Assembly: GCA_030615745.1 (NCBI GenBank)
Contig: JAUWYR010000027.1
Coordinates: 1-31,508 of the forward strand
Reading direction: 5' to 3'
DNA length: 31,508 bases
DNA from: Candidatus Zixiibacteriota bacterium
GTDB taxonomy: Bacteria > Zixibacteria > MSB-5A5 > SM23-73-2
The position numbers and the translations under genes are program-made. The first letter of the stretch is position 1. Every line of letters starts with the position of its first letter. Below are positions 5,422 through 20,677 of this stretch, in pieces. The notes beneath the pieces are model-generated. The model saw only the letters and a list, made by a program, of their open reading frames with translations, did not search any database and was not told the origin of the DNA.

Positions 5422-6123
5422 ATGAACCGATTGACACTTCACATGATTAGTTATGGAATGTATATTATCAGTTCAAGAAAGGAAGAACGGTTCAATGCAC
5501 AGATTGCTAACACAGTATTTCAAACGACATCAGAACCTCCAACCATAGCGGTAAGTATCAACAATAAGAATTTGACTCACCAGTTTATTAGGGAAAGCAA
5601 AGTTTTTTCAGTATCCATTCTATCTAAAGAAACGCCGTTGAAATTCATAGGGCATTTTGGCTTCAAATCTGGTCGTGACATTGATAAGTTTAAGGATATA
5701 AATTATAAGGTTGGCATAAGTGGTGCCCCGATAGTTATGGAAAATACCATAGGTTACATAGAGGCTGAACTTGTTGACAGTTTAGATGTTGGAACGCATA
5801 CTGTTTTTATCGGGAAGGTAAAAAGCGCCGAAATCATCAAGGATAAGGAACCTATGACTTATGCATACTATCACGAAATAAAAGGGGGTAAGGCTCCAAA
5901 AACAGCACCAACATACAATAAAGGAGATAATAAAAAGGAGACAAAGAAGATGAAAAAATACGTTTGCACCGTTTGTGGCTATGTTTATGAGCCGGAAAAA
6001 GGAGACCCCGATTCCGGGATAAAACCAGGGACCCCCTTCGAGCAGTTGCCGGATGATTGGGTGTGCCCGGTCTGTGGAGCGGACAAGAGCGCATTCGAGT
6101 TTGCGGAAGGAGGTGAAAAATGA
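5422..6123 (+). CDS. hrb: Flavin reductase-rubredoxin fusion (high-molecular-weight rubredoxin, Hrb type)
   Basis: Residues 1-155 form a flavin reductase-like FMN-binding domain ([26 protein letters not shown]). A lysine-rich linker leads to a complete rubredoxin at 177-233 with iron ligands C182, C185, C215 and C218. In Moorella, Hrb takes electrons from NADH and passes them to the flavodiiron protein FprA for NO/O2 reduction; fprA lies just downstream here, which supports that role. The SD AGAGG is at 5410-5414. The linker DNA contains a strong SD (AAGGAG, 5935-5940) 9 nt before an in-frame ATG at 5950, so free rubredoxin of 57 residues could also be made. The stop overlaps the next ATG (ATGA), implying translational coupling. 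Confidence 0.9.
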
Positions 6124-6584
6124 AACATTGGCGCTGCACGGTTTGTGGATACATTCACCAAGGTGAAGAACCACCAGAAAAATGCCCTAACTGTCAAGCT
6201 CCCAAAGAGAAGTTCGTAGAGGTATCTGAGGATTTCGAGGAGATTCATATGCATTATGCTCAAAAACTGTCCTATGGTGAACAGGTGGATGTCAATCCCT
6301 TCTTTGGAAATTTTTCGGTGTTATCTCCCTTTGTATACAACCTTCCTGTAGGCCAGCGTGTGCCCCTGCATAAGCATCCCACCACCGACGAACTTTTCTT
6401 CATCTTAAAGGGGCGGATAAAATTTAAAGTTGCTGACAAGGAACTTGTTGCTGTCATGGGTGACGTGGTTCAAGGGAAGATGAATGTGCCCCACACATTT
6501 GAAAACATCGGGGATGAGCCTGCGGCATTCTTGTCGGTCAAAGGGCCCAAGCCGGTTGACCTGATAATGCTGGAGAAACAGTAA
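6120..6584 (+). CDS. Rubredoxin-like domain fused to a cupin
   Basis: 154 residues. The N-terminus is a short rubrerythrin-type iron site (C6, C9, C22, C25; [10 protein letters not shown] and CPNC). From about 60 on it is a cupin barrel with motif 1 (G78...H84-x-H86...E91...G98) and motif 2 (G114...P124-H125...N129), so H84, H86, E91 and H125 could bind one metal. It shares ATGA with the upstream hrb stop. I know no characterised protein of this architecture; a redox-coupled dioxygenase, an oxygen/peroxide sensor or a small-molecule binder are all possible. The context suggests oxidative stress. Domain calls are firm, function is not known. Confidence 0.8.
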
Positions 6585-6751
6585 AGTGATAATCCTCATT
6601 CATAATTCCATGGCTCAAACATAAGGCTTTTAGAACACCCGGGAAAAGTTGATTGACAATGTTAAGAGAAATTGAAAGAAAAGGTCAAAAAATTGAGCAC
6701 AATTCTTATTAAATTGACACAGAATAGCAAGAAAAAATAGAGGAGGTTGAT

Positions 6752-7942
6752 GTGGTTGTCCGCGAATTAGAACCAAGTATTTATTCCGTAGGTGCAATAG
6801 ACTGGGATAGAAGGTTATTTGACGAACTCATCCCGCTTCCAGATGGGACAAGTTATAATGCCTACTTGATAAGGGGAGGTGAAAAGACAGCGCTTTTGGA
6901 TACGGTTGATCCGACCAAGGAGCATGAACTTTTGGCAAACTTGGAAAAACTGGGAGTCAAAAAAATAGATTATGTCATTTCCCATCATGCCGAGCAGGAT
7001 CACTCAGGAGTCCTCCCTGCGATTCTGAAGAGTTATCCTGACGCCAGGATTGTGACCAACTCTAAATGCAAATCCATGCTTATGGATTTGCTTTTGATTC
7101 CTGATGATAAGTTTATAACAGTAAATGATAGGGAGACAGTGGGGTTAGGAGATAAAACACTCGAGTTCATCTATGCCCCCTGGGTCCATTGGCCAGAGAC
7201 AATGTTTACCTATCTAAGAGAGGATAAGATCCTTTTCACCTGCGATTTTTTCGGGTCTCATCTGGCGACAAGTGATCTTTTTGTAAAAGATGAAGCGGAA
7301 GTATACCGAACAGCCAAGCGGTATTATGCGGAGATTATGATGCCCTTCAGGACAGTTATCAGGAAAAACTTGGAAAAGATAAAAAAGCTGGATATGAAGA
7401 TAATAGCTCCAAGCCATGGTCCAGTCTACGACAAACCAGAGTTTATTCTCAATGCTTATAGAGATTGGACTTCTGATGAAGTAAAGAATGAAGTTGTTAT
7501 ACCTTATATCTCAATGCACGGTAGCACAAAAAGGATGGTCGATTATTTTGCGGGCGCTCTGATGGAAAGAGCTATCACTGTAAAGCCGTTCAATTTGACA
7601 AAAACAGATATAGGAGAATTGGCGATGGCTCTTGTAGATACCGCTACTATAGTGATAGCCTCGCCCACTGTATTAGTTGGTCCTCATCCAAATATTGTAT
7701 ATGCAACTTACCTTGTCAATGCCTTAAGGCCAAAATTAAAATTTGCATCAATAATTGGCTCTTATGGGTGGGGAGGGAAGATGGTGGAACAGATTAAAGG
7801 AATTTTGACCAACCTTAAAGTGGAAATACTTGCGCCAGTTGTGGTGAAAGGTTATCCTAAAGAAGAAGATTTTAAATCCCTGGAAAACTTAGCAGATGAA
7901 ATCTTGAATAAGCACAAAGAGCACAATATTGTCAAAGAGTAG
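6752..7942 (+). CDS. fprA: Flavodiiron protein FprA (O2/NO reductase)
   Basis: 396 residues. The N-terminal metallo-beta-lactamase-like domain carries the diiron ligands H79-x-E81-x-D83-H84, H146, D165 and H222. From about 250 a flavodoxin domain follows (IPYISMHGSTKRM, the FMN phosphate loop). The family reduces O2 to water and NO to N2O in the cytoplasm with electrons from rubredoxin. Length is normal for two-domain FprA with no fused rubredoxin, which fits supply by the Hrb upstream. I chose GTG 6752 because AGGAGG lies at 6741-6746; the ATG two bases earlier is out of frame. There are 167 nt between the previous gene and this one, so it may have its own promoter; I found no convincing one. 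Confidence 0.95.
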   Translation: MVVRELEPSIYSVGAIDWDRRLFDELIPLPDGTSYNAYLIRGGEKTALLDTVDPTKEHELLANLEKLGVKKIDYVISHHAEQDHSGVLPAILKSYPDARIVTNSKCKSMLMDLLLIPDDKFITVNDRETVGLGDKTLEFIYAPWVHWPETMFTYLREDKILFTCDFFGSHLATSDLFVKDEAEVYRTAKRYYAEIMMPFRTVIRKNLEKIKKLDMKIIAPSHGPVYDKPEFILNAYRDWTSDEVKNEVVIPYISMHGSTKRMVDYFAGALMERAITVKPFNLTKTDIGELAMALVDTATIVIASPTVLVGPHPNIVYATYLVNALRPKLKFASIIGSYGWGGKMVEQIKGILTNLKVEILAPVVVKGYPKEEDFKSLENLADEILNKHKEHNIVKE

Positions 7943-8088
7943 AAATGGTAAATTAAGAGATTTTCAAGAGAAATAAGGACATTCTGATAAAGCTATCTAC
8001 TCAGCAAAAGGACTTTACAAAAAGCAATTAAGCAATATATTGGTAAAGAAAAAAATTAAGAAGAATATAAAGAGAGGAGGTATTAAAA

Positions 8089-8309
8089 ATGGGAACAAAA
8101 GGAAGAGAGATTGTGGGTTTGGATGTGGACAAACTCATAGAGTTGCTAAACAAGGCACTCGCAGATGAGTGGCTTGCCTACTATCGTATTGGATAGGAGC
8201 AAAGCTAGTCAAAGGTCCTATGAGAGGGCAGGTGGTTGCTGAGCTCGAAGAGCATGCAGGAGATGTTCTTCAGGCGAGGGAATATTGTAATATTGATAGC
8301 TTTTGGTAA
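8089..8309 (+). pseudogene. Chimeric pseudogene: ferritin-like (Dps/bacterioferritin type) N-terminus joined to desulfoferrodoxin C-terminus, with frameshift
   Basis: A strong SD (GAGAGGAGG) precedes ATG 8089. The first 32 codons (MGTKGREIVGLDVDKLIELL, ADEWLAYY) are the start of a ferritin-like protein. One base is missing at about 8185: the expected YYQYWIGAK needs CAG but CG is present, giving TAG at 8194-8196. In the restored frame the ferritin sequence continues ([24 protein letters not shown]) to about 8265. It then switches to the last codons of desulfoferrodoxin ([13 protein letters not shown], stop 8307-8309), matching 9562-9600 of the intact gene. The ferritin core helices are missing. 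This looks like a recombination joint between neighbouring stress genes that then decayed. Confidence 0.82.
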
Positions 8310-8334
8310 CAAAAAAATAAAGGAGGTAAAAACT

Positions 8335-8919
8335 ATGGAGAACACAATCCAAAATTTAACCAAAGCATTTATCGGCGAAAGCCAGGCAAGAAACCGCTAC
8401 AATTTTTATGCAAAAATTGCCAAGAAAGAGGGTTTCGAGCAGATTGCAGAAATTTTTCTGATCACCGCGGAGAATGAAAAAGAACATGCCAGCTGGTTGT
8501 TTAAATTGATAAATGAATTGAAGAAGAAAACTGAAAAGAATTTAGATGAGATAGAAGTTGAAGCCAAAGCTCCAACAATTCTTGGCAACACTTTTGAGAA
8601 TCTAAAGGTAGCAATTTCTGGCGAAAACTATGAATATACAAAGATGTATCCAGAATTTGCTGAGGTTGCTGAAAAAGAAGGGTTACCTGAAATAGCCAAA
8701 AGGCTAAAAGCAATCGCCAAAGCGGAAGAGCATCACGAGGAAAGATTTAAGAAACTTTTGAAAGAGGTTGAAGCAGATACAGTCTTCAAAAAGGAAAAAG
8801 AAGTATGGTGGGTTTGTCGCGAATGCGGTTATGTCCATTTCGGAAAACAGCCACCAGAAGAATGTCCTTCCTGTGACCATCCAAGAAGTTTTTATCAAAT
8901 CAAATGCGAGGAATATTAA
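8335..8919 (+). CDS. rbr: Rubrerythrin
   Basis: 194 residues. The ferritin-like four-helix domain (1-145) carries the diiron carboxylate/histidine motifs ([23 protein letters not shown]). A C-terminal rubredoxin domain has C161, C164, C177 and C180. Rubrerythrins reduce hydrogen peroxide in the cytoplasm of anaerobes using rubredoxin electrons. I chose ATG 8335: AAGGAGG lies at 8320-8326, and the open frame further upstream is derived from the chimeric pseudogene. Its leader is the same as that of the fragment at 5274. It starts a close-packed set with the ferritin-like and desulfoferrodoxin genes (gaps of 21 and 12 nt), probably one operon. Confidence 0.95.
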
Positions 8920-8940
8920 AATTAAAAAGGAGAAAGAAAA

Positions 8941-9222
8941 ATGCTATCAAAAATACCCATTAATCTTGAGAGAATAAAAAAAGAGGATTTGGATAAAGAG
9001 ATATTGAGAGTTGGAATAATAGCTGAATTAGATGCAATAAATCTTTATGAACAGATGGCAGCCATGGCTGGAAATGAGAATATTAAGAAAATTCTTTTGG
9101 ATATAGCAAAAGAAGAAAAGACGCACATGGGAGAATTCCAATCTCTATTATTAAAAGAAGACAAAGAGCAAGAAAAAGAATTAGAAGAAGGGAAAAAAGA
9201 AGTTGATGAGTTAACAGAGTAA
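8941..9222 (+). CDS. Encapsulated-ferritin-like (EncFtn-family) protein
   Basis: 93 residues, one helical pair rather than a full four-helix ferritin. The motif AELDAINLYEQMA and EEKTHMGEF places E29, E59 and H62 with the spacing (30 and 3) of the ferroxidase ligands of encapsulated ferritins. From memory it closely resembles the ferritin-like domain fused to the encapsulin shell in Pyrococcus furiosus, and ends (KKEVDELTE) about where that shell domain would begin. The family oxidises Fe(II) at a dimer interface and stores iron inside an encapsulin. No shell gene is in this window. SD AAAGGAG precedes the ATG; it sits between rbr and the desulfoferrodoxin gene. Confidence 0.85.
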   Translation: MLSKIPINLERIKKEDLDKEILRVGIIAELDAINLYEQMAAMAGNENIKKILLDIAKEEKTHMGEFQSLLLKEDKEQEKELEEGKKEVDELTE

Positions 9223-9234
9223 AGGAGAAGGTAT

Positions 9235-9615
9235 ATGACAGAACAAAAACAAATCTACAAATGTGAGGTCTGTGGAAATATAGTTGAGGTTTTACACGAA
9301 GGTGCGGGGGAACTTGTATGCTGTGGTCAACCGATGAAGCTTCTGGAAGAGAAGGTGGAAGAGCAGGGTAAAGAGAAGCATCTTCCTGTGATTGAGAAGA
9401 AAGATAAGGTTGTCAAGGTGAAAGTGGGTTCAGTTCCTCATCCTATGGAGGAAAAGCACTATATAGAGTGGATAGAGGTTCAAACTGAAAAAGGGATATT
9501 CAGAAAGTTTCTAAAACCGGGTGAAAAGCCAGAGGCTGAATTTGAAATTAGAGAAAATATTCTTCAGGCAAGGGAATATTGTAATATTCATAGTTTGTGG
9601 GCAACAAAAAAATAA
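9235..9615 (+). CDS. dfx: Desulfoferrodoxin (two-iron superoxide reductase)
   Basis: 126 residues. The desulforedoxin domain binds Fe(Cys)4 through C10, C13, C29 and C30. The neelaredoxin domain has the active-site ligands H49, H69, H75, C116 and H119, with the catalytic E47-K48 pair intact, at the same numbering as well-studied two-iron enzymes. It reduces superoxide to peroxide without releasing O2; the rubrerythrin upstream can then remove the peroxide. SD AAAGGAG lies 6 nt before the ATG. Its 3' end is duplicated in the chimeric pseudogene at 8266-8309, and an orphan ribosome binding site follows its stop. Confidence 0.96.
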
Positions 9616-9616
9616 A

Positions 9617-9639
9617 GGAGGTGACTCTTGACATCACCT
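9617..9639 (+). other. Orphan ribosome binding site and small hairpin
   Basis: Right after the desulfoferrodoxin stop comes GGAGGT, the same sequence that leads into rubrerythrin after the desulfoferrodoxin tail in the chimera (8322-8327). No start codon follows here. AGGTGA and TCACCT also pair around a 9-nt loop. The orphan SD suggests that a downstream rubrerythrin copy was lost. Confidence 0.5.
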
Positions 9640-9667
9640 TTAATCAATTGGAAAAGGAGATAAAATT

Positions 9668-10888
9668 GTGAGTGAACCTTTTGGCAAAAAAGAAGATAAA
9701 AAAGAACTTTTAAAAGGACTAATAAAGAGATTGCATAAGGGTGCAAATCCAGAGGAGATGAAGGAAGAATTCAAAGAAGTGTTTAAAGATGTTACGCCCA
9801 CTGAGATAGCCCAGATGGAGGAGGAGTTGATAAAAGAGGGTATGCCACCGGAAGAGATCCAGAGGCTTTGCGATGTTCACCTTGCTTTGTTCAAGGAATC
9901 GCTTGAAAAAGAGAAGACTTTAGCACCTCCAGGACACCCCATCCACATTCTTATGGAAGAGCACAAAATAATCCTAAAATTTGCTTTTGAACTCAAAGAT
10001 ATTGCAAAAGAGATAAAGAAAGCAAAAGATTTCGCATCTGTTAGTGAAAAGATTAAACATTTGGGTCACATTGCCAAGCATTTCAAGGAATCAGAAAGCC
10101 ACTATTTGCGAGAGGAAAATGTCCTTTTCCCTTACCTTGAGAAACACGGCATCACCCAGCCTCCAAAAATGATGTGGATAGAACATGATAAGATAAGAGA
10201 GATAAAGAAAAATCTTTACAGCCTTCTTGATACACATAAAAGTATGGGTTTTCAAGATTTTGCTGACCGACTGGACCAAGAGGCAAAATCCTTAGCCGAT
10301 ATGCTTTCCAGTCATTTTTACAAGGAAAACAATATTCTTTTCCCAACTTCATTAAAAGTTATAGAAGGAAAAGAATGGAAGGATGTGAGACGTCAATTCG
10401 ATGAACTTGGCTACTGCTGTTTTACTCCAGAACCTGCGAGGATGACCACAGAAAAGACAGAGATGCCTCTTTCTAAACCTGAAACAGAAGGAATGGTTAC
10501 TTTCGAGACCGGCAATTTATCAAATAAGGAAATTGAGGCAATTTTTAACAGCCTACCCATAGATATCACTTTTATTGATAAAGATAACACAGTCCGATAC
10601 TTCAGTCAGTCTAAAGACAGAATCTTTGTTAGAACAAAAGCAATAATTGGTAGAACAGTTCAGCAATGCCATCCTCAAAAAAGCCTTCATCTTGTTAATC
10701 AGATATTGGAAGATTTCAAAAGTGGCAGAAGGGATATGGCCGAGTTCTGGATTAATTTTGAGGGTAAACTTGTTCATATACGTTATTTCCCGGTCCATAA
10801 CAATAAAGGTGAGTATCTGGGATGCATTGAGGTGACACAGGACATAACCAGTATAAAAAAGATAGAAGGGGAAAAGAGGTTATTATAA
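9668..10888 (+). CDS. DUF438 - hemerythrin - PAS domain protein
   Basis: 406 residues. Order: an N-terminal helical DUF438 domain (about 1-75), a hemerythrin/HHE domain (about 90-225) with HPIH, EEH, HFKESESHYLREENVLFPYLE, WIEHD and HFYKENNILFP, then a PAS domain (about 285-400, IFNSLPIDITFID to YLGCIEVTQDIT). The hemerythrin domain should bind O2 or NO at a diiron centre; the PAS domain suggests signalling, but no output domain follows. This architecture is common in anaerobes and its exact role is unknown; related hemerythrin proteins act in nitrosative stress. GTG start supported by AAGGAG at 9654-9659. It is between the stress genes and the 2-oxoacid oxidoreductase, 26 nt before the latter. 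Confidence 0.85.
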   Translation: MSEPFGKKEDKKELLKGLIKRLHKGANPEEMKEEFKEVFKDVTPTEIAQMEEELIKEGMPPEEIQRLCDVHLALFKESLEKEKTLAPPGHPIHILMEEHKIILKFAFELKDIAKEIKKAKDFASVSEKIKHLGHIAKHFKESESHYLREENVLFPYLEKHGITQPPKMMWIEHDKIREIKKNLYSLLDTHKSMGFQDFADRLDQEAKSLADMLSSHFYKENNILFPTSLKVIEGKEWKDVRRQFDELGYCCFTPEPARMTTEKTEMPLSKPETEGMVTFETGNLSNKEIEAIFNSLPIDITFIDKDNTVRYFSQSKDRIFVRTKAIIGRTVQQCHPQKSLHLVNQILEDFKSGRRDMAEFWINFEGKLVHIRYFPVHNNKGEYLGCIEVTQDITSIKKIEGEKRLL

Positions 10889-10914
10889 AAGTATAAAACA
10901 CGTAGGATACTTAT

Positions 10915-12570
10915 ATGAGGAAGGATGTGTTTACTTTTCTTGTGGGTGGTAAGGCAGGCGAAGGGGTCAGAAAGGCGGGGTCTGTTGCTGCCGGATTGTT
11001 TGCCAGTATGAAGCGCCAGGTCTTTAATATGGACGATTATCAGAGTTTGATTAAAGGAGGCCATAACTTCTCGATTATCAGCACAGCTAACAGGCAAATC
11101 ACCAGCCATTATATAAAAGCGGATCTGGTGGTGGCACTGGACAAAAGGAGTTATGAGATGCATAAGGGAGATCTGACAGAAGGGGGAATTATGGTCTATA
11201 ACTCTGATGCTGTTGGAGATGCAGAGGGCGTGGGGGTGCCATTAACAAAAGAGGCCAAAAAATATCCCAACCCTAATTTAAGATTGGGGGTGGGAGCAGT
11301 GACAACACTGGCCGCAGCCATAGGCTGGGATAAAGAGAGTCTGAAAAGGCTTATTGAGAAGAAGTATCCCCGGGATATTGAAAACAATATTGCTTATGCC
11401 ATGACAATATATGAAATGGTAAATCCTAAAATTGAAAATAGGTTTAAACTGGATGATGGGGATAAGGAAAGGTCCATTCTTTCGGGCAACGAGGCGATAG
11501 CTCTTGGAGCAGCAGCGGGCGGGCTGGACATCTATTTTGCTTACCCCATGACACCCTCATCATCTCTTCTGCATACACTGGCCACCCATGGTGGAAAGAT
11601 GGGCCTTCCGGCGGTGCATCCTGAAAATGAGATCGGGGTTATCAATATGGCAATTGGGTCCGTTTTCGCAGGGGCAAGAGCCATGGTGGGCAGCAGTGGA
11701 GGAGGCTTTGCTCTGATGCAGGAGGCTTTTTCCCTTGCAGGTATGGCAGAGGCACCTCTTTTATGTGTTTTGGGATCCAGGCCTGGCCCATCCACAGGCG
11801 TCCCCACCTATACAGCCCAGGGAGACCTGAAATTTGCTATACATCAGGGGCATGGCGAGTTTCCGAGAATCATCGCCTCTCCCGGCAGTATGGAAGAGGC
11901 GTTTTATCTTGCTGCTGAAATGCTGAGTCTACTCTGGAGATTCCAGACCCCGGGGATATTGCTTACCGAGAAACATATGGCGGAGAGTAGGATGACAGTC
12001 GATATTGATGCGGAAGGAGCGAAATGGCCTGAACCTATTGTGCATGGCGCGGGTGAGTATAAAAGGTACCTTGACACCGAAAACGGAGTCTCGCCACTTT
12101 TGTTTCCTCCCTCGAAGGAACTGATTAAGTGGGATAGTTATGAGCATGATGAATTGGGAATAACAACTGAAAATCCTGAGATGATCGCCAGGATGCAGGA
12201 AAAGAGGAACAGAAAGAAAAAGGCAATTATAGATCACTTAAAGGATATCCATACTGTAAATATGTATGGCGAGAAGGGTCCTGTAATTCTCACTTACGGA
12301 TCAACCACCATGAGTGTTTTAGAGGCACTCAAAGTTAGTGATATAGAAGCTATGGTGGTTCAGCCAATATATCTTGAGCCCTTACCTGTATGGGAACTTG
12401 AAAGATACAAGAAGGGTGGGGTAATAGTCGTGGAGCAGAGTTGCGCAGGCCAGTTTGCTTCACTTCTTAAGGAAAAGGTTGGAATTGAACCAATCACGGT
12501 TATCAAAAAATATGATGGGAGGCCCTTTGATCCCATAGAATTGGCTGACAAAATAAAGGGGGTGGTATAG
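10915..12570 (+). CDS. 2-oxoacid:ferredoxin oxidoreductase, fused gamma-alpha subunit
   Basis: 551 residues. The gamma domain (1-185) starts with FLVGGKAGEGVRKAG, and the alpha domain (from about 190) contains GNEAIALGAAAGGLDIYFAYPMTPSS, the substrate/TPP-side helix region, and ends with the transketolase C-terminal-like domain. With the beta subunit it oxidatively decarboxylates a 2-oxoacid to acyl-CoA and reduces ferredoxin. The absence of a ferredoxin-like delta subunit resembles KorAB-type 2-oxoglutarate or broad-range enzymes; substrate cannot be fixed from sequence. The start has a moderate SD (AGGA, 10904-10907). Confidence 0.92.
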   Translation: MRKDVFTFLVGGKAGEGVRKAGSVAAGLFASMKRQVFNMDDYQSLIKGGHNFSIISTANRQITSHYIKADLVVALDKRSYEMHKGDLTEGGIMVYNSDAVGDAEGVGVPLTKEAKKYPNPNLRLGVGAVTTLAAAIGWDKESLKRLIEKKYPRDIENNIAYAMTIYEMVNPKIENRFKLDDGDKERSILSGNEAIALGAAAGGLDIYFAYPMTPSSSLLHTLATHGGKMGLPAVHPENEIGVINMAIGSVFAGARAMVGSSGGGFALMQEAFSLAGMAEAPLLCVLGSRPGPSTGVPTYTAQGDLKFAIHQGHGEFPRIIASPGSMEEAFYLAAEMLSLLWRFQTPGILLTEKHMAESRMTVDIDAEGAKWPEPIVHGAGEYKRYLDTENGVSPLLFPPSKELIKWDSYEHDELGITTENPEMIARMQEKRNRKKKAIIDHLKDIHTVNMYGEKGPVILTYGSTTMSVLEALKVSDIEAMVVQPIYLEPLPVWELERYKKGGVIVVEQSCAGQFASLLKEKVGIEPITVIKKYDGRPFDPIELADKIKGVV

Positions 12571-13616: not shown

Positions 13617-13639
13617 ACCCTACGGGGGTAGCGTATAAG
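13617..13639 (+). promoter_or_regulatory. Candidate CsoR operator with -10 box
   Basis: ACCCTACGGGGGTA (13617-13630) is a G-tract/C-tract inverted repeat like the operators bound by CsoR/RcnR proteins. It touches a -10-like TATAAG (13634-13639) and lies 19 nt upstream of the csoR ATG. No good -35 is present. The fit to copper autoregulation is by pattern only. Confidence 0.5.
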
Positions 13640-13657: not shown

Positions 13658-13942
13658 ATGAATGATGCTAAAACAACACATTTAGGAGAATTACAAAGGC
13701 TGAAAAAGATAGAGGGACAAATCCGAGGAATTCAGAGAATGATTGAAGAAAAAAGGTATTGCATCGATATTCTTACCCAGATTTCAGCCGTGGTTGGAGC
13801 GATAATGAAGGTTGAAGAAGATATCTTAACCAGACATCTTGAAAGTTGTGTCTCTCAAAGCTTCTCTAAGGGTGACCGCCGGGATCGGGAAGAAAAAATA
13901 AAAGAAATTATCGGACTATTAAAGAGATTTAGAAAATATTAA
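13658..13942 (+). CDS. csoR: CsoR-type copper-sensing repressor
   Basis: 94 residues, all-helical CsoR/RcnR fold. The Cu(I) ligand set C-H-C is present as C35 (in RYCIDILTQ), H60 and C64 (RHLESC), with Y34 and Glu 78/79 in the usual second-shell places. The family leaves DNA when Cu(I) binds. It heads a run of copper genes through 18439 and has an operator-like site in front, so it likely represses the whole cluster including itself. Nickel, formaldehyde or sulfide sensing by relatives is less likely given the C-H-C pattern and CopA downstream. Confidence 0.9.
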
Positions 13943-13959
13943 AAAAGGAGGTAATAAAA

Positions 13960-14184
13960 ATGATGTGGGGAGATCACTTAATGTTCGGAGGATTTATGTG
14001 GATATTTTGGGTTCTTGTCATTGTTGGTCTGGTCTTTTTAATTAAATGGTTGGTCCAACAGAGTCAACCAACTGAAACTAAACATCGTGAGACTCCTTTA
14101 GAGATATTGAAAAAAAGATATGCCAAAGGTGAAATTGACAAAGAGGAGTTTGAGCAAAAGAAAAAGGATCTGACTGGCTCTTGA
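13960..14184 (+). CDS. Small SHOCT-domain membrane protein
   Basis: 74 residues: one hydrophobic helix (about 8-30, [19 protein letters not shown]), then a C-terminal SHOCT motif (about 45-72, [23 protein letters not shown]). AAGGAGG lies 8 nt before the start. Small SHOCT membrane proteins are common beside copper ATPases and CsoR; their job is not known, though oligomerisation or partner binding has been proposed. Confidence 0.85.
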
Positions 14185-14228
14185 GGGTGATTCTGATTTC
14201 AGTTTAAATCTTAAACCGAGGAATCAAA

Positions 14229-14471
14229 ATGAAGGTTACAATTTATTCATCCCCCACCTGAGTGGATTGCCAGGCGGCGAAAAGGTTCTTTTCGCAAAAT
14301 GGAGTTGAGTTTGAAGACAAAAATGTGGAGGAGCCGAGATTCAGAGATGAGTTGGTGGAAAAATATGGCAGAATGGCGACGCCAACCATTATCATCGACG
14401 ATGAAGTCATCCTGGGTTTCGGAATAAACAAAGAAAAGATTGTGAAAAAATTAAACATAAAAGGAGGATAA
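14229..14471 (+). CDS. Glutaredoxin-like selenoprotein (UxxC), Sec at codon 11
   Basis: Reading TGA 14259-14261 as selenocysteine gives 80 residues starting MKVTIYSSPT-U-VDC. This is the glutaredoxin/NrdH N-terminus with Sec in place of the first Cys of CxxC. The rest fits the fold: ATPTIII (cis-Pro strand, GRMATPT) and the C-terminal helix. An SD (GAGG, 14218-14221) sits 7 nt before ATG 14229, upstream of the TGA, so ribosomes are set to read into it. A hairpin at 14277-14295 fits a bacterial SECIS. Likely a cytosolic thiol-disulfide oxidoreductase in the copper operon. Alternatives: a nonsense mutation of TGC/TGT, or a start at GTG 14262 that loses the catalytic residue and first strand. 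SelA/B/C genes are not in this window. Confidence 0.75.
14259..14295 (+). promoter_or_regulatory. In-frame UGA and putative bacterial SECIS hairpin
   Basis: Downstream of UGA (14259-14261), GCGAAAAG and CUUUUCGC (14277-14284 and 14288-14295) form a perfect 8-bp stem with a GUU apical loop; opening the top pair gives GGUUC. Bacterial SECIS elements need a stem-loop with a G-U in the apical loop about 16-37 nt after the UGA; here the loop G lies 24 nt after the UGA's last base. The hairpin is within coding sequence, as expected for bacteria. Confidence 0.68.
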
Positions 14472-14475
14472 GAAG

Positions 14476-14727
14476 ATGGCTGGAACCAAGTTAAATCCTT
14501 TGGCCTTGGGATATGCTGCAGCAATTTTCTCTGCAGCGATAATGTTGTTGTTGGGAATAGGAGGAAATATCGGAGTTTATGCTGGCGCCGCTGAGCAGAT
14601 GGAGAAATGGCATATGTTCTTTTCCCTCAGCATCGGCGGAATAATTGCAGGGATCGTAGAGGCAGCTATTCACAGCTTTGTAATTGGATTTGTTTTTGGA
14701 TGGCTGTATAACAGATTTGTAAAGTAA
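14476..14727 (+). CDS. Small two-TM membrane protein (DUF5676-like)
   Basis: 83 residues with two hydrophobic segments (about 8-35 and 48-75) and a short Lys/Arg end; the first begins LNPLALGYAAAIFSAAIMLL. The pattern resembles DUF5676 proteins seen in metal-resistance operons, but I assign this from general resemblance only. Its SD (AAGGAGG, 14461-14467) overlaps the end of the selenoprotein gene, so the two are likely coupled. Function unknown. Confidence 0.75.
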   Translation: MAGTKLNPLALGYAAAIFSAAIMLLLGIGGNIGVYAGAAEQMEKWHMFFSLSIGGIIAGIVEAAIHSFVIGFVFGWLYNRFVK

Positions 14728-14809
14728 GAAATGGTAAAATGGCAATTAGAATTCAGGATAAACAAGGAGACATTGCAAAACATTAAACCTTGAAAGGAGG
14801 TGAAGAAAG

Positions 14810-15271
14810 GTGAAAAGATACTGGAAAACTATCGGGGCTATCTCTTTAGTTTTTATCGTTGTCGTTCTATTCGGATCATTCAGTTTTTCCCAGCAGGAGA
14901 AGGGCATGAAGCAACAGAAGGGTATGATGGGTGGCATGATGGGATCCATGGACAACATGATGGGGCAGTGCGACCAGATGATGAATAAGATGGACATGAT
15001 GATGGGACAGAAAATGAGCTCTGGTTGCATGGGGATGATGAACATGAGAGGTATGGGAATGATGATGGGTAATATGTCCCAGAACATGAAGAGAATGATG
15101 GAGAACATGGATTCGGTGATGATGAACGAGGAGATAATGAAAGACGAGGTGATGAAGAAGCACATGGGAGAGATGCAGAAACACATGCAGATGATGACCG
15201 AACACATGCAGGGGGTCATGAACAGCATGCAGGATATGACTAAGAGAATGGAGGAGGCGGAGTCTAAGTAA
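14810..15271 (+). CDS. Exported methionine-rich protein, probable copper binder
   Basis: 153 residues. An N-terminal signal peptide or anchor (K/R then ISLVFIVVVLFGSFSFS) is followed by an extremely Met-rich domain: 43 of 153 residues are Met, mostly as MM, MMG and MxxM, with only two Cys. Met clusters bind Cu(I) in the periplasm. The second half (about 90-150) becomes helical, with MKxHM/MQ-type spacing. GTG start with AAAGGAGG at 14793-14800. It lies just upstream of copA, so a periplasmic Cu(I) sponge or chaperone is the natural guess. Silver binding is possible. I do not recognise a named family. Confidence 0.8.
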   Translation: MKRYWKTIGAISLVFIVVVLFGSFSFSQQEKGMKQQKGMMGGMMGSMDNMMGQCDQMMNKMDMMMGQKMSSGCMGMMNMRGMGMMMGNMSQNMKRMMENMDSVMMNEEIMKDEVMKKHMGEMQKHMQMMTEHMQGVMNSMQDMTKRMEEAESK

Positions 15272-15272
15272 C

Positions 15273-15366
15273 ACCTGCAGAAGTTTGGTTTAGATCTCCA
15301 TGTGCACAGAGTTGTCTGCAGGTAAAACCGTTGCCAGGGAAGGAAGACAATTCCTTTCCTGGCGGC
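15273..15366. repeat. Two inverted repeats between the Met-rich gene and copA
   Basis: ACCTGCAG (15273-15280) pairs with CTGCAGGT (15316-15323). Next, CCAGGGAAGGAA (15334-15345) pairs with TTCCTTTCCTGG (15351-15362) around GACAA, with one G-U pair, and the stem can extend with flanking G-C. No T-run follows. These could be an mRNA-stabilising or attenuating structure that lowers copA relative to the genes before it. Confidence 0.5.
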
Positions 15367-15419
15367 AAAATCATTCCTTATCAAAGATGTAATTTTCTGT
15401 ATCTATGAGGAGGTAAGCA

Positions 15420-18053
15420 ATGCCCCGAGATTTAGTTTGTGGAATGGAAGTAAAAAAAGGAGAGGCCGCAGGGGTTTCAGGTTATAAGGGGAAGAAGTAC
15501 TATTTCTGTTCAAAAAATTGCCAGGAAAAGTTTGATCAAGCTCCAGAAAAATACATCCAATCAGGAATAGATTCAAAGACAAAAGTAAAGGATACCTCCA
15601 GAGAAACCAAAGTTGAGCAACTTGAAAGGGTAGATCTTCCTATAGGGGGAATGACCTGCGCCAGCTGTGCCCAGACAATCCAAAAAAGTCTCTTGGAATT
15701 AAAAGGTGTAAACAAAGCTTCAGTGAACTTCGCCACCTCCAGGGCCACCCTAACATATGATCCCCAGCAAGCAGAAGTAGAAAATTTCATCTCTGCTATT
15801 CGGAAAAGCGGTTATGATGTAGGAACCGCCTTCATAGAAGTGCCCATTCAGGGGATTGACTGCGCCTCATGTGTTCAGAAGATCGAGAAAGCTTTACTTG
15901 CCACCAAAGGGGTAACCCAGGCAGTGGTAAATTTAGCTACTCAGAAGGCTAAGGTTGAATATTTGCCTTCAGAAACCCGTCTGGATGAGGTCAAAGATGC
16001 GATAGAATCCACCGGTTATAAGGTGATGGAAATCCCTACAGAAGAACAGGTGGAGGATGTGGAGAGGGTTCAAAGGGAGAAGGAATACAAAAAGTTAAAA
16101 AAGAAGTTTTTGGTCGGTCTGGTAATAAGTGTGCTGATATTCTTGGGCAGCTCTGAATGGATCCCCGGGGTACCAGAGATTTGGCGAAACTTTCTTGTGT
16201 TGTGGATTTTGGCAACGCCGGTTCAGTTTTGGGTGGGCTGGCAATTTTACCGGGGAGCCTGGGGAGCTTTCATCCACAGAAATGCAGATATGAATACTCT
16301 CATAGCTGTGGGCACCTCTGCGGCTTATCTTTATAGTGTGGTGGCTACCTTATTACCCGCCTTATTTACCAGAGGGGGCATAGAACCAAAGGTATATTTT
16401 GACACCTCCACTATCATCATCACCCTAATCCTTTTGGGAAAGCTTTTGGAAGCCAGAGCTAAAGGTCAAACCTCTGAGGCTATACGAAAGCTGATGGGGT
16501 TGCAGGCCAAAACTGCTCGGGTAATAAGGGAGGGAAAGGAAACGGATATTCCAGTGGAGGAGGTCTTAGTCGGAGATGTGGTGTTAGTAAGACCTGGAGA
16601 GAGGATTCCAGTAGATGGAATCATTAAGGAGGGCAAATCCTCAGTGGATGAATCTATGATAACCGGAGAGAGTATCCCTGTAGAAAAAAGCGAAGGGGAT
16701 GAGGTTATCGGAGCCACCATAAACAAGACTGGAACTTTCAAGTTTGAGGCCATCAAGGTGGGAAAGGATACCGCTTTAGCTCAAATCATAAAATTAGTTC
16801 AAGATGCTCAGGGATCCAAAGCCCCCATACAAAGATTAGCCGATGTGATCTCTGGCTATTTTGTCCCCATTGTGATTTCTATTTCTATTGCTACCTTTAT
16901 AATCTGGTTTGACTTCGGACCAAATCCAGCTTTAACCTTTGCCCTTTTGAATTTCGTGGCGGTTATGATTATCGCCTGCCCCTGTGCTTTAGGATTAGCT
17001 ACTCCCACCGCCATAATGGTGGGAACCGGAAAGGGAGCTGAGCACGGAGTTTTAATCAAGGGAGGAGAAAGCTTGGAAACGGCGCACAAGCTTACCACCA
17101 TCGTCTTTGACAAGACCGGAACTTTAACCAAGGGACAACCCGAGGTAACAGATATAATTTCAGCAAATAATTTCACCCCAAAGGATATCTTAGAATATGC
17201 CGCATGTGCTGAGAAGGGTTCGGAACATCCCCTGGGAGAAGCCATTGTTAAAAAAGCTACCGGGGAAAACATAGAACTTTCTGATCCTAAAGATTTCAAT
17301 GCCATAGCCGGGCATGGAATAGAAGCCAATATCAACAAACGTGAAGTAATCCTGGGAAACCTAAAACTCATGCATGACCGAAAAATAGAATTAGGTGACC
17401 TCGAATCTAAATCAGAGAGATTGGCTAATGATGGGAAGACCCCCATGTATGTGTCTATTGATGGGAGGGCTGCCGGGATCATTGCAGTGGCAGATACCTT
17501 GAAACAGAATTCGAGAAAGGCAGTGGAGGATCTCCACAAGCTTGGTCTGGAAGCGGTGATGCTTACCGGCGACAATCCAAGGACTGCTGAGGCTATTGCC
17601 AAGAAAGTGGGAATTGATAAGGCGCTCTCAGAGGTGCTTCCTGAGGATAAAGTTCGTGAAGTGAAAAGGTTGCAATCAAAGGGGAAAGTAGTAGCTATGG
17701 TTGGGGACGGAATAAACGACGCACCGGCTTTAGCCCAGGCGGATGTGGGAATCGCTATCGGAACCGGAACAGATGTAGCTATGGAGGCTTCGGATATAAC
17801 CCTGATTAAAGGAGATCTTCAGGGCGTGGTGGCAGCCATTGAATTGAGCAAACGAACTATAAAGACAATAAAACAAAATCTTTTCTGGGCTTTCTTCTAC
17901 AACACTGTAGGAATTCCTATTGCCGCTGGAATACTTTATCCTTTCTTTGCGATCCTCTTAAATCCAATAATCGCCTCCGCCGCTATGGCCTTTAGTTCAG
18001 TTTCAGTAGTATCTAATTCCCTCAGGTTAAGAAGATTTAGATTTAAATCTTAA
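15420..18053 (+). CDS. copA: Cu(I)-exporting P1B-type ATPase CopA with N-terminal YHS and two HMA domains
   Basis: 877 residues. A YHS/TRASH metal domain (1-47, CGM...[12 protein letters not shown]) precedes two heavy-metal-associated domains with GMTCASC (C80, C83) and GIDCASC (C148, C151). The transmembrane core has the copper signature CPC (C520-P-C522). The ATPase domains carry the TGES actuator motif, the phosphorylated D564 in DKTGT, SEHPLG, TGD and GDGINDAP. It pumps Cu(I) out of the cytoplasm. The gene has AGGAGG before ATG and is followed 11 nt later by a cupredoxin gene. Length exceeds standard CopA because of the YHS domain, which may deliver or sense copper. Confidence 0.97.
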
Positions 18054-18064
18054 GGAGGTTAATT

Positions 18065-18439
18065 TTGGAAGCTAAAATAGTGATTACAATTTTAGGAATC
18101 TTGCTCATAATTTTAGTAAACTGGTATTTTTTCTTTTCAAAAAGAAAGGCAACTGTGGCTGAATTAAAAGAGAGGGGAATTCAAGAAGTTAAGGTAACTG
18201 TAAAAGGTGGCTACACTCCGGATGTAATAGTGGTTAAAAAAAACCTTCCGGTGAGAATCAATTTCTACCGGGATGAAACTGCCGAATGTTCAGATACCAT
18301 CGTCTTTGGTGATTTCAACATAAGAAAACCCCTGCCAGCATTCAAAATCACCACCATAGAATTTACTCCAGAAAAACCTGGCGAATACACCTTCACCTGT
18401 GGAATGGGGATGATGAAAGGAAAGTTAGTTGTGGAATAG
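18065..18439 (+). CDS. Membrane-anchored cupredoxin-like protein
   Basis: 124 residues. One N-terminal TM helix (about 4-24) then a short linker and a cupredoxin-type beta domain (about 40-124: VTVKGGYTPDVIVVKKNLPVRI..., ETAECSDTIVF, YTFTCGMGMMKGKLVV). The ETAECS and CGMGM motifs supply Cys and Met ligands, as in cupredoxin_1 proteins beside copper ATPases. It is probably exposed outside the membrane, accepting or buffering copper exported by CopA. TTG start chosen because AAGGAGG lies 6 nt upstream (18052-18058); no ATG is suitably placed. Confidence 0.85.
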   Translation: MEAKIVITILGILLIILVNWYFFFSKRKATVAELKERGIQEVKVTVKGGYTPDVIVVKKNLPVRINFYRDETAECSDTIVFGDFNIRKPLPAFKITTIEFTPEKPGEYTFTCGMGMMKGKLVVE

Positions 18440-18460
18440 TCGTGATGTCCTCTAGGGAGG

Positions 18461-18528
18461 TTGTCACTAAATTTGCACTTTTATAATATGAGAGTAGATC
18501 AAGCGACGTAAAAGTGTGCAAATTTTTT
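18461..18528 (+). promoter_or_regulatory. AT-rich inverted repeat with embedded promoter-like boxes and T-run
   Basis: AAATTTGCACTTTTA (18469-18483) pairs with TAAAAGTG-TGCAAATTT (18509-18525, two bulged bases), and the right arm runs into six T (18523-18528). This could end the copper operon. The same region has a perfect TATAAT (18482-18487) and TTGTCA (18461-18466) with a short 15-nt spacer, so it could instead be an operator-promoter for the next gene. I cannot decide between them. Confidence 0.45.
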
Positions 18529-18542
18529 AGATTGGAGGGAAG

Positions 18543-18880
18543 ATGAAAGAGATAAAAGCATATATCAGGACAGATACCTTAGAAAAAACCGTAAAGGCTT
18601 TGGAGGAAGCAAAGGGCCGGGGATCTCCGTGACAACTGTTCATCCGGTTGGCTATGGATTCGATCCCAATTACTTTTCGAGCTCTCAGCAGGTTACTAAA
18701 AGATATTGGCCCATAACTAAGCTGGAGATAGTCTGCTCTGACAAAGATGTGGACCGCCTGGTGGAGGTAATTAGGAGCAATTCTTACACTGGCTTAAAAG
18801 GAGACGGAATGATCTTTGTTTCCCCGGTGGGAACGGCGATTCGAATCCGAAGTGGAGAGAAGGGCGAAGCAGCACTCTAA
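18543..18880 (+). pseudogene. P-II family protein, frameshifted
   Basis: ATG 18543 (SD GGAGG close by) opens MKEIKAYIRTDTLEKTVKAL, the usual P-II start, but stops at TGA 18630-18632. The remainder continues in another frame (VTTVHPVGYGFDPNYF..., KLEIVCSDKDVDRLVEVI..., LKGDGMIFVSPVGTAIRIRSGE) to 18880. Adding one base in the CGGGGATC run near 18620 joins both into a normal-length P-II protein of about 112 residues. The T-loop (SSSQQVTKRY) is unlike GlnB, so it may belong to the metal-associated P-II-like group. Either a true pseudogene or a homopolymer sequencing error. Confidence 0.8.
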
Positions 18881-19086
18881 TATTTAGACGCTTGATCTAA
18901 TATGATTGATTACAGGAGAAATGAGAGTGTTGCTTTTGTTGGGAGAATATCTTTGGGGGCATTGCTTCTGAGTTTGATGTTAAAAGTAATTTTAAAAAAC
19001 CTCAAGAATGAGGGAATATGCTATAATAGGAGACCAGGGAATGCACGGATGAGATCCAGCATATATTCATGAAAGGAGGAACTGTT

Positions 19087-19473
19087 ATGAGCTACTATTT
19101 TAGCAAAATATTGAATATATCTTTCGAGGAAGCGATTGGAAGGGTAAATGATGAATTAAAAAAAGAGGGATTTGGTATTCTCACTGAAATCGATGTCAGG
19201 GAAACTCTCAAGAAAAAACTGAATGTGGATTTCAAAAAATACAAAATCCTTGGTGCATGCAACCCACCCTTTGCCTATCAGGCATTGCAAGTAGAGGACA
19301 AAATTGGAACGATGTTGCCGTGTAATGTCATTGTGCAAGAAGCTTCTAACGGACAGGTAGAAGTATCTGCCATAGATCCCGTAGCTTCCATGCAGGCCGT
19401 AGAGAATCCTGCGCTGAAGGAGATTGCTGCCGAAATTCGAGATAAATTAAAAAAGGTTATCGACAGTTTATAA
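19087..19473 (+). CDS. DUF302 family protein
   Basis: 128 residues: MSYYFSKILNISFEEAIGRVNDELKKEGFGILTEIDV..., ILGACNPPFAYQAL, GTMLPCNVIVQE and a C-terminal helix. These are the conserved parts of DUF302, a small alpha/beta domain seen beside metal and redox genes; its function is unknown. I chose ATG 19087 because AAGGAGG (19073-19079) lies 7 nt before it; an in-frame ATG at 19069 would overlap that SD. A perfect TATAAT at 19022-19027 may be its -10 box, without a clear -35. Confidence 0.88.
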   Translation: MSYYFSKILNISFEEAIGRVNDELKKEGFGILTEIDVRETLKKKLNVDFKKYKILGACNPPFAYQALQVEDKIGTMLPCNVIVQEASNGQVEVSAIDPVASMQAVENPALKEIAAEIRDKLKKVIDSL

Positions 19474-19639
19474 AACAACAATAAGGTATTGATGGATATG
19501 ATGAGGGGAATAAGGTGCGCAGTGTGGAGTTTGTCTAAATTTTCTCATTGGCAAAGACCAGAAGCTTGGGAGAACCCTTAAAATTATTAGCAATAAACAA
19601 CATACGAGAATGATATATTAATACAGAAAAGGAAAAAAG

Positions 19640-20677
19640 ATGGACATGCGAGGAGATGATACAATGAATCATCAACACCACAATAAACACAGCCATAATC
19701 ACCATGCTTACCGTATAGAAGAGTTCAAAAGAAAGTTAAAGTACTTATGGAAAGGTTAATGGCAAAAAGTACATGTGGGAAGCCCGAACCTCTTAAAAGA
19801 GCTAAAGATAGTGGTTGAGAATGAAGAAATAAAAAAGATTCAAAAGCAGGGTAAAACTGTTGTTTTTACTGTAGTTGATGGCAAATTCGTGGGTGCCTTT
19901 GCTCTTGCTGATAAAATAAGAGAGGAGTCCCATGAAGCGATCAAAAAGCTTAAAGAAAATGGGGTCAGAGTTTATATGCTCACCGGGGATGCAAAAGAAG
20001 TTGCAAGGTGGGTTACAAAGGAGCTGGGTATAGATGACTACTTTGCACAAGTTTTGCCCGACGAAAAAGCAGAAAAAGTTGAGTTTCTGAAGGAAAAAGG
20101 TTACAAGGTTTCCATGGTTGGCGACGGTATAAACGATGCTCCCGCTCTTGTCACAGCAGACGTTGGCATCGCCATAGGTGCTGGGACGGATGTAGCCATA
20201 GAAAGCGCAGACATAATTCTTGTAAAAAATGACCCAAGAGATGTTTCAAAGGTTGTAGACCTTTCAGGGAAAACATACTCAAAGATGGTTCAGAATCTGT
20301 GGTGGGCAGCAGGTTATAATATTGTGGCTATACCATTAGCGGCTGGAGTATTGTATAATATGGGCATTGTAATAAACCCCGCAATTGGAGCTATGCTTAT
20401 GTCCTTAAGCACCGTTATAGTTGCCATTAATAGCCAGATTTTGAGAAAATATGAACCAAAGGAGGTAAAATTTATGGAGAAAAAACACATAACCAAAGAT
20501 CCGGTTTGCGGAATGGAGGTAGAGCATGAAAAAGCTTATGGGACGATTGAGCATCAGGGAAATCTCATCTATTTCTGCTCAGGAAAATGCGAAGAGGAAT
20601 TCAAGAAAAATCCCAAAAAATATTTATCAAAGATGAAAAAGGAAGAACACGAAGAATATAAACACCATCATCACTGA
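19640..20677 (+). pseudogene. Internally deleted CopB-type metal ATPase
   Basis: The N-terminal 37 codons are the His-rich start of a CopB ATPase (MNHQHHNKHSHNHHAYRIEEFKRKL), ending in TAA at 19757. What follows is the last third of the ATPase. KVNGKK lies in one frame (19752-19769) and then, after one missing base, GSPNLLKEL opens at 19775, followed by [15 protein letters not shown], two or three TM helices and a YHS domain with a His tail. The CPx helix, actuator domain and DKTGT segment are gone, so it cannot pump. About 370 residues have been lost compared with a normal CopB. The remaining long frame (19775-20677) could still be translated from GTG, but no SD is evident. Confidence 0.82.
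20474..20677 (+). CDS. YHS-domain metal-binding protein, nested at the 3' end of the broken ATPase
   Basis: 67 residues starting MEKKHITKDPVCGMEVEHEK, with the YHS/TRASH pattern (VCGM...IYFCSGKCEEEF) and a C-terminal HHHH. AAAGGAGG (20458-20465) lies 8 nt before its ATG, inside the frame of the ATPase remnant, so it can be made alone even though the ATPase is dead. YHS domains bind soft metals and are often single genes beside metal pumps. It may be the only useful product left from this locus. Confidence 0.6.
   Translation: MEKKHITKDPVCGMEVEHEKAYGTIEHQGNLIYFCSGKCEEEFKKNPKKYLSKMKKEEHEEYKHHHH

Follow-up and report, generated by a model that had tools for sequence, protein, structure and literature searches.

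A predicted selenocysteine glutaredoxin encoded in a csoR-copA copper operon of a member of the Zixibacteria

Introduction

Glutaredoxins containing selenocysteine (Sec) are an established family and are tabulated in a 2026 review (PMC13188914). Among them, cGrx1 of Clostridium (Alkaliphilus) oremlandii contains Sec in its native form and has the selenoprotein MsrA as its proposed partner; copper goes unmentioned in the paper describing it (PMC7642778). The NCBIfam Uxx-star models (NF041212, NF041211 and NF041114) and YruB (TIGR02196) likewise cover glutaredoxin-like proteins with Sec and Cys interchanging at the same site. Links between glutaredoxins and copper have also been described: the copZ-prxgrx-gorB operon of Bordetella pertussis is copper-induced and encodes a glutaredoxin domain (PMC7794356), and the redox status of Atox1 is under the control of human Grx1, which has also been linked to that of ATP7A/B (PMC5039574). 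Furthermore, selenoproteins are listed in the CopZ-like, P-type ATPase and Cu/Zn-efflux families (PMC13188914), so that the meeting of selenium with copper proteins is not wholly new. We found no report of a Sec-glutaredoxin in a csoR-copA operon in the literature, in which our coverage of recent work on selenoprotein neighbourhoods is incomplete. The initial annotation of the locus presented here had noted no described selenoprotein from such an operon; for the operon itself, this agrees with the literature covered here, in which the review lists selenoproteins of copper-related families.

The locus lies in a stretch of 31,508 nucleotides (hereafter, the window; contig JAUWYR010000027.1, assembly GCA_030615745.1) from a Candidatus Zixiibacteriota bacterium, whose genome comprises 2.28 Mb in 74 contigs and is 98.6% complete.

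Results

The gene and its operon

The predicted gene (Table 1) starts from an ATG with a good Shine-Dalgarno sequence, its UGA replaces exactly the first Cys of a CxxC motif (SPT-U-VDC), and the frame remains open to a normal C-terminus ending at TAA (14469-14471), all of which agrees with the initial annotation. With UGA read as Sec, the product is MKVTIYSSPTUVDCQAAKRFFSQNGVEFEDKNVEEPRFRDELVEKYGRMATPTIIIDDEVILGFGINKEKIVKKLNIKGG. When Sec was read as Cys, this protein matched the Pfam Glutaredoxin family with 60.4 bits (cut-off 22.9), and AlphaFold predicted a confident thioredoxin-type fold (pLDDT 92.8). The best match in the PDB, both by sequence and by fold (Foldseek rank 1), was cGrx1 (7c10).

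The gene order in the window is csoR, SHOCT gene, Sec-glutaredoxin, small membrane protein, Met-rich protein, CopA and cupredoxin, followed by DUF302. The CopA protein scored 653.6 bits against TIGR01511 (cut-off 397), and the C-x24-H-x3-C spacing in the CsoR protein is the one known from copper-sensing CsoR. A copper-type CsoR thus stands near a Cu-type P1B ATPase, and the CsoR-CopA setting proposed in the initial annotation is borne out. Upstream of csoR, an operator-like palindrome (ACCCTACGGGGGT) presumably resembles known CsoR boxes, and a matching stretch (ACCATAGGGGGGTA..CGTATAA) is found at the same place in locus L034. No sigma-70-like promoter was matched upstream of csoR on the plus strand, and the promoter and terminator scans gave nothing above chance.

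Two further regions of the window should be mentioned. Positions 19763-20677 encode the C-terminal part of a Cu-type P-ATPase together with a YHS domain and without the N-terminal part, which is either a gene remnant or a stand-alone domain protein. An oxygen-defence gene cluster of the kind known from anaerobes, identified by eye only, occupies positions 5422-12570, with rubredoxin-, flavodiiron-, rubrerythrin- and desulfoferrodoxin-type proteins and, after these, a subunit of a 2-oxoacid:ferredoxin oxidoreductase.

Table 1. Positions of the features of the copper operon and of the Sec-glutaredoxin gene in the window
Feature	Position	Strand	Basis
Operator-like palindrome upstream of csoR, putative CsoR site	13617..13629	+	read in sequence
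csoR, copper-sensing repressor, 94 aa, C35-x24-H60-x3-C64	13658..13942	+	PF02583 2.4e-27; residues from translation
Small membrane protein with SHOCT domain	13960..14184	+	PF09851 5.4e-12
Shine-Dalgarno GAGGA	14218..14222	+	read in sequence, ahead of ATG 14229-14231
Predicted selenocysteine glutaredoxin, 80 aa, UVDC active site	14229..14471	+	PF00462 2e-16
UGA codon for selenocysteine (predicted), residue 11	14259..14261	+	UGA at the same site in 8 other clade genomes
TGC, resolving Cys14 of UxxC	14268..14270	+	translation; invariant in alignment
Bacterial SECIS hairpin (predicted), 8 bp, GUU loop	14277..14295	+	bSECIS criteria (PMC13188914), synonymous-codon test
Small membrane protein, 83 aa, weak holin-like match	14476..14727	+	NF037947 3.9e-09, below cut-off
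Secreted Met-rich protein, 153 aa	14810..15271	+	sequence; homologs at L034 and L035
copA, Cu(I) P1B-type ATPase, N-terminal YHS and two HMA domains	15420..18053	+	Pfam; TIGR01511
Membrane-anchored cupredoxin-like protein	18065..18439	+	PF13473 9.3e-22
DUF302 protein	19069..19473	+	PF03625 5.8e-27; also beside Sec-glutaredoxin in L034 and L038

Conservation of the UGA codon

Nine genomes of the clade, all of them metagenome assemblies and from two phyla (Zixibacteria, n=5; Chloroflexota, n=4), have the UGA at this residue. A search at the level of the order revealed it in three more genomes of another family, with 63-73% identity, and a search of the phylum added the fifth Zixibacteria genome (G017, locus L037); the Chloroflexota loci are L038, L039, L040 and L041. 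With eight genomes besides that of the window carrying UGA at this site, four from each phylum, the codon is not an assembly error. Cys forms, with TGT or TGC, were found in Gracilibacter (L036), two actinobacteria (L042 and L043) and Paenibacillus (L087). The comparison with homologs that the initial annotation had called for shows either UGA or a Cys codon at this site, and the UGA is common to independent assemblies, other families and a second phylum. A search of viral contigs with the alignment found no relative.

Substitution patterns indicate coding selection upstream as well as downstream of the UGA: past this codon every pair has a pN far lower than pS, and ahead of it most pairs do. 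The amino acids encoded by the nine codons between the start codon and the UGA (KVxIYSSPT) are conserved, and this speaks against a gene start at GTG 14262.

The SECIS hairpin

The hairpin GCGAAAAG[GUU]CUUUUCGC, noticed in the initial annotation and confirmed here, has eight perfect pairs and starts 15 nt past the UGA. Bacterial SECIS elements are expected to have a loop of 3-9 nt with G in its first two positions and a stem of 4-16 bp, to lie 16-37 nt from the UGA and to have an energy of at most -7.5 kcal/mol (PMC13188914). The hairpin in the window agrees with all of these, its 3-nt GUU loop lying 23 nt after the UGA on the 8-bp stem, with an energy of -16.4 kcal/mol for 54 nt. The raw folding energy is ordinary (z -1.27) and uninformative on its own.

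We therefore rely on a test in which synonymous codons were randomised in the 20 codons past the site and recodings with an equally good hairpin in the permitted place were counted. Only 0.15% of the recodings matched the quality of the window hairpin (p = 0.0015); the other UGA forms gave p = 0.001-0.065 each, and the combined value over eight representatives was 5e-11. Every UGA form has a SECIS-like hairpin 22-23 nt after the UGA. The Cys homologs, in contrast, have no hairpin of such quality in the same test (p 0.03 to 1), their best hairpins being short or placed elsewhere. When genome G000 was compared with the other Zixibacteria, synonymous differences amounted to 0.88-0.99 over the final two thirds of the gene but, in the same pairs, to just 0.14-0.57 over the codons of the hairpin, a drop that selection on the RNA would lead one to expect. 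In a set of ten UGA sequences, the helix is 92.5% paired and three pairs have changed on both sides; these paired changes support the helix weakly, since two of the three distinguish the two clades and go along with amino-acid changes (Lys-Arg-Phe-Phe to Lys-Glu-Phe-Leu), and may thus represent one event. Synonymous-codon randomisation is firmer evidence than the covariation counts, and by this test and by its conservation the hairpin is judged non-random despite its ordinary energy.

Paralogs with a CxDS site, in which the resolving Cys is lost, occur in the operon region of the Sec-glutaredoxin, 0.8-1.9 kb from it, in loci L072 and L035 (genomes G003 and G004). A weaker stem, of 5 bp, is left in the G004 paralog (p about 0.07), as if this gene were derived from a Sec gene.

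Selenocysteine machinery and code usage

A complete set of genes for Sec insertion was found on contig C32 of the window genome, in a single cluster (L033, 3203-7868) with the order tRNA-Sec (anticodon TCA), selD, selA and selB, all above cut-off. The genome can therefore decode UGA as Sec; selD is a selenoprotein gene as well, with UGA at its active site. All twelve genomes tested contain selA, including those with Cys forms, so that its presence cannot separate Sec from Cys forms. A genome-wide change of the code was rejected, because the SHOCT gene directly upstream of the Sec-glutaredoxin ends in TGA, UGA being a normal stop elsewhere in this genome. The four components that the initial annotation had suggested looking for are thus present, and the UGA is not unique to this assembly; neither of these two possible objections applies. 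Judged by sequence, the locus is a genuine selenoprotein gene.

Relation to known glutaredoxins

The protein of the window and cGrx1 share the PF00462 domain, the fold and a native UxxC site. They are 42% identical, and differ in that cGrx1 has UPxC and the window clade UxDC. The window protein scores below the cut-offs of all three Uxx-star models (46.2 against 66 for NF041212, 32.1 against 100 for NF041211 and 22 against 72 for NF041114) and of YruB (70.8 against 88.55). In the tree, for which an E. coli Grx3 sequence served as outgroup only, the window protein belongs to a separate clade with a UxDC site and support of 98/99.

On the copper side, the B. pertussis protein differs in being a Prx-Grx fusion that is glutathione-based with its own reductase and is not described as a selenoprotein. 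Human Grx1 is akin in that it ties a glutaredoxin to the redox state and copper loading of the metal-binding domains of Cu-ATPases (PMC5039574, PMC7057996), but it is a glutathione-dependent Cys protein and not part of an operon. The same operon logic is seen on a plasmid of Paenibacillus urinalis, where a Cys glutaredoxin (WP_205054954.1, active site CSDCNYAKRFF) is encoded in a copZ-copA operon; this protein is 42% identical, has a TGT codon for Cys, and is annotated only as a glutaredoxin family protein. Sec-glutaredoxins and Cys glutaredoxins in copper operons are thus both known, and their combination is represented by a distinct clade.

More distant relatives were observed on plasmids of cultured Bacillota. 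Glutaredoxin frames that lack annotation and have UGA in place of the catalytic Cys codon are present in Cytobacillus firmus M7 plasmid p1 (NZ_CP107028.1, 263078-263293; L086, 5001-5216) and in C. pseudoceanisediminis (NZ_CP097350.1; L088, 6001-6267), with the sites UPDC and ULDC, respectively. The former has a perfect SECIS-like hairpin, GCGAAAGA[GUU]UCUUUCGC. Neither plasmid was among the best 20 of the 149 plasmids that matched in a search for plasmid-borne selA.

Recurrence of the copper linkage

A Cu-ATPase gene is located near the Sec-glutaredoxin in seven of the nine Sec loci. CopA is adjacent in all five Zixibacteria and nearby in two of the four Chloroflexota. The trio of SHOCT gene, Sec-glutaredoxin and YHS-CopA is present in every one of the Zixibacteria genomes (5/5), with csoR in two of them, and a SHOCT homolog also stands beside the Sec-glutaredoxin in the Chloroflexota locus L038, where a Cu/heavy-metal-type ATPase, DUF302 and SHOCT lie within about 6.5 kb. 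In L040, a CopA gene is 0.4 kb away. Neither L039 nor L041 has a Cu-ATPase within the flanks examined, and the same is true of copper linkage for the two actinobacterial Cys forms. The Cys form of Gracilibacter is followed by CsoR, CopA and CopZ, and that of Paenibacillus (L087) lies within a CopZ-CopA operon.

The genomes of the five Zixibacteria have one to three matches each to Cu-ATPase models, fragments included, and by a rough estimate the probability of a chance adjacency to CopA lies well below 1% for each genome, although the related genomes are not independent. With so few CopA-type matches per genome, the five adjacencies are hardly due to chance. As the same arrangement recurs in distant bacteria, selenium chemistry is probably used in the handling of toxic copper; linkage alone does not prove a copper function.

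In L038 (Caldilineae; 7720-8234), we also observed two tandem Sec-glutaredoxin genes of different clades, with the sites GULFC and then TUGDC, both with SECIS-like hairpins and adjoined by a cytochrome c gene.

Discussion

We propose, with a probability of roughly 0.72, that the Sec-glutaredoxin belongs to a copper-responsive csoR-copA operon and acts as a selenol/thiol reductase for the copper machinery; its most probable role is that of a thiol/selenol oxidoreductase by which Cu(I)-handling cysteines are held in the reduced state. SelB with Sec-tRNA would read the UGA as Sec, directed by the downstream hairpin, and in the resulting protein Sec11 would be the attacking nucleophile and Cys14 the resolving residue. 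Cu(I) would lift CsoR from the operon, so that the protein would be made alongside the Cu(I) exporter CopA. Its activity would most likely be that of a fast cytosolic selenol/thiol reductase, with the Cys pairs of the CopA HMA domains, the YHS domain, CsoR and other copper-damaged thiols as candidate targets. A role in reducing the cysteines of copper machinery is suggested by analogy with the B. pertussis operon and human Grx1. A search of the genome for the glutathione synthetase GshB (PF02955) gave no match, so that, unless glutathione is supplied by a gshA/gshF-type route or by import, the reductant may be other than glutathione, perhaps a thioredoxin-reductase-type system.

The strongest rival, which we consider rather unlikely, is that the protein is mainly a Cu(I) carrier, that is, a selenolate chaperone whose UxxC selenolate-thiolate pair would bind Cu(I) and deliver it to the CopA HMA domains, taking the place of CopZ during copper export in an organism for which the search for glutathione synthetase gave no match. 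Our search for HMA domains in the genome found just the pair within CopA and no free CopZ, which fits this reading, as do the tight adjacency to CopA in the Zixibacteria and the ability of human Grx1 to transfer Cu(I) to the metal-binding domains of ATP7B and to Atox1 (PMC7057996). However, the Cys relatives of Gracilibacter and Paenibacillus keep CopZ beside the glutaredoxin, so that the two are not simply alternatives, and a UxxC motif together with a TPT loop makes an ordinary redox site. If the protein were such a chaperone, biology would be using a selenium-copper bond in copper trafficking.

It is also unlikely, in our view, that this is a Sec-glutaredoxin of the general redox household, serving MsrA, peroxiredoxins or ribonucleotide reductase and standing in a copper operon by chance. 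The closest solved relative, cGrx1, is indeed proposed to reduce the selenoprotein MsrA (PMC7642778), and the genes in L039 and L041 have no Cu-ATPase near them, but the linkage to Cu-ATPase recurs in three phyla, in different gene orders and with both Sec and Cys forms. A quite improbable alternative is that the protein is directed at a different soft metal or a metalloid, such as mercury or arsenic, and that the operon is a broad soft-metal operon. Metal ligand roles have been proposed for UXX-star selenoproteins (PMC13188914), and in a distant locus a Sec-glutaredoxin adjoins MerR-like, MerT-HMA fusion, CsoR-family and DsbD genes; in the window, the sensor carries the CsoR-type C-H-C fingerprint, the ATPase is a strong Cu-type match, and the neighbouring genes examined, from 13658 to 20677, included none recognisable as mer or ars. 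The distant locus just mentioned (L075, 6961-11041, genome G018) encodes a divergent Sec-glutaredoxin with a GUIFC site in a mercury-like operon with a MerR-like gene, DsbD/CcdA, a CsoR-family gene and a MerT-HMA fusion. Finally, there is next to no probability that the UGA is an ordinary stop, a nonsense mutation or a sequencing error, in a gene that is dead or starts at GTG 14262: this GTG, directly past the UGA, does open a 69-aa frame, but the sequencing-error, pseudogene and GTG-start readings were rejected on the UGA shared at the same site by independent assemblies and another phylum and on selection on the codons before it, and the selected hairpin and the Sec machinery of the genome also speak against them.

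We retain the reading of a Sec-dependent reductase for copper machinery as the preferred one. The clade escapes the current NCBI models, and reading TGA as a stop would shorten or miss such genes. What Sec would gain over Cys in a copper operon is a question raised by these loci, with faster reduction of copper-damaged thiols and direct handling of Cu(I) as the two candidate answers. The finding would tie selenocysteine to copper homeostasis in at least two phyla, the Zixibacteria and the Chloroflexota, with Cys counterparts in the copper operons of Bacillota.
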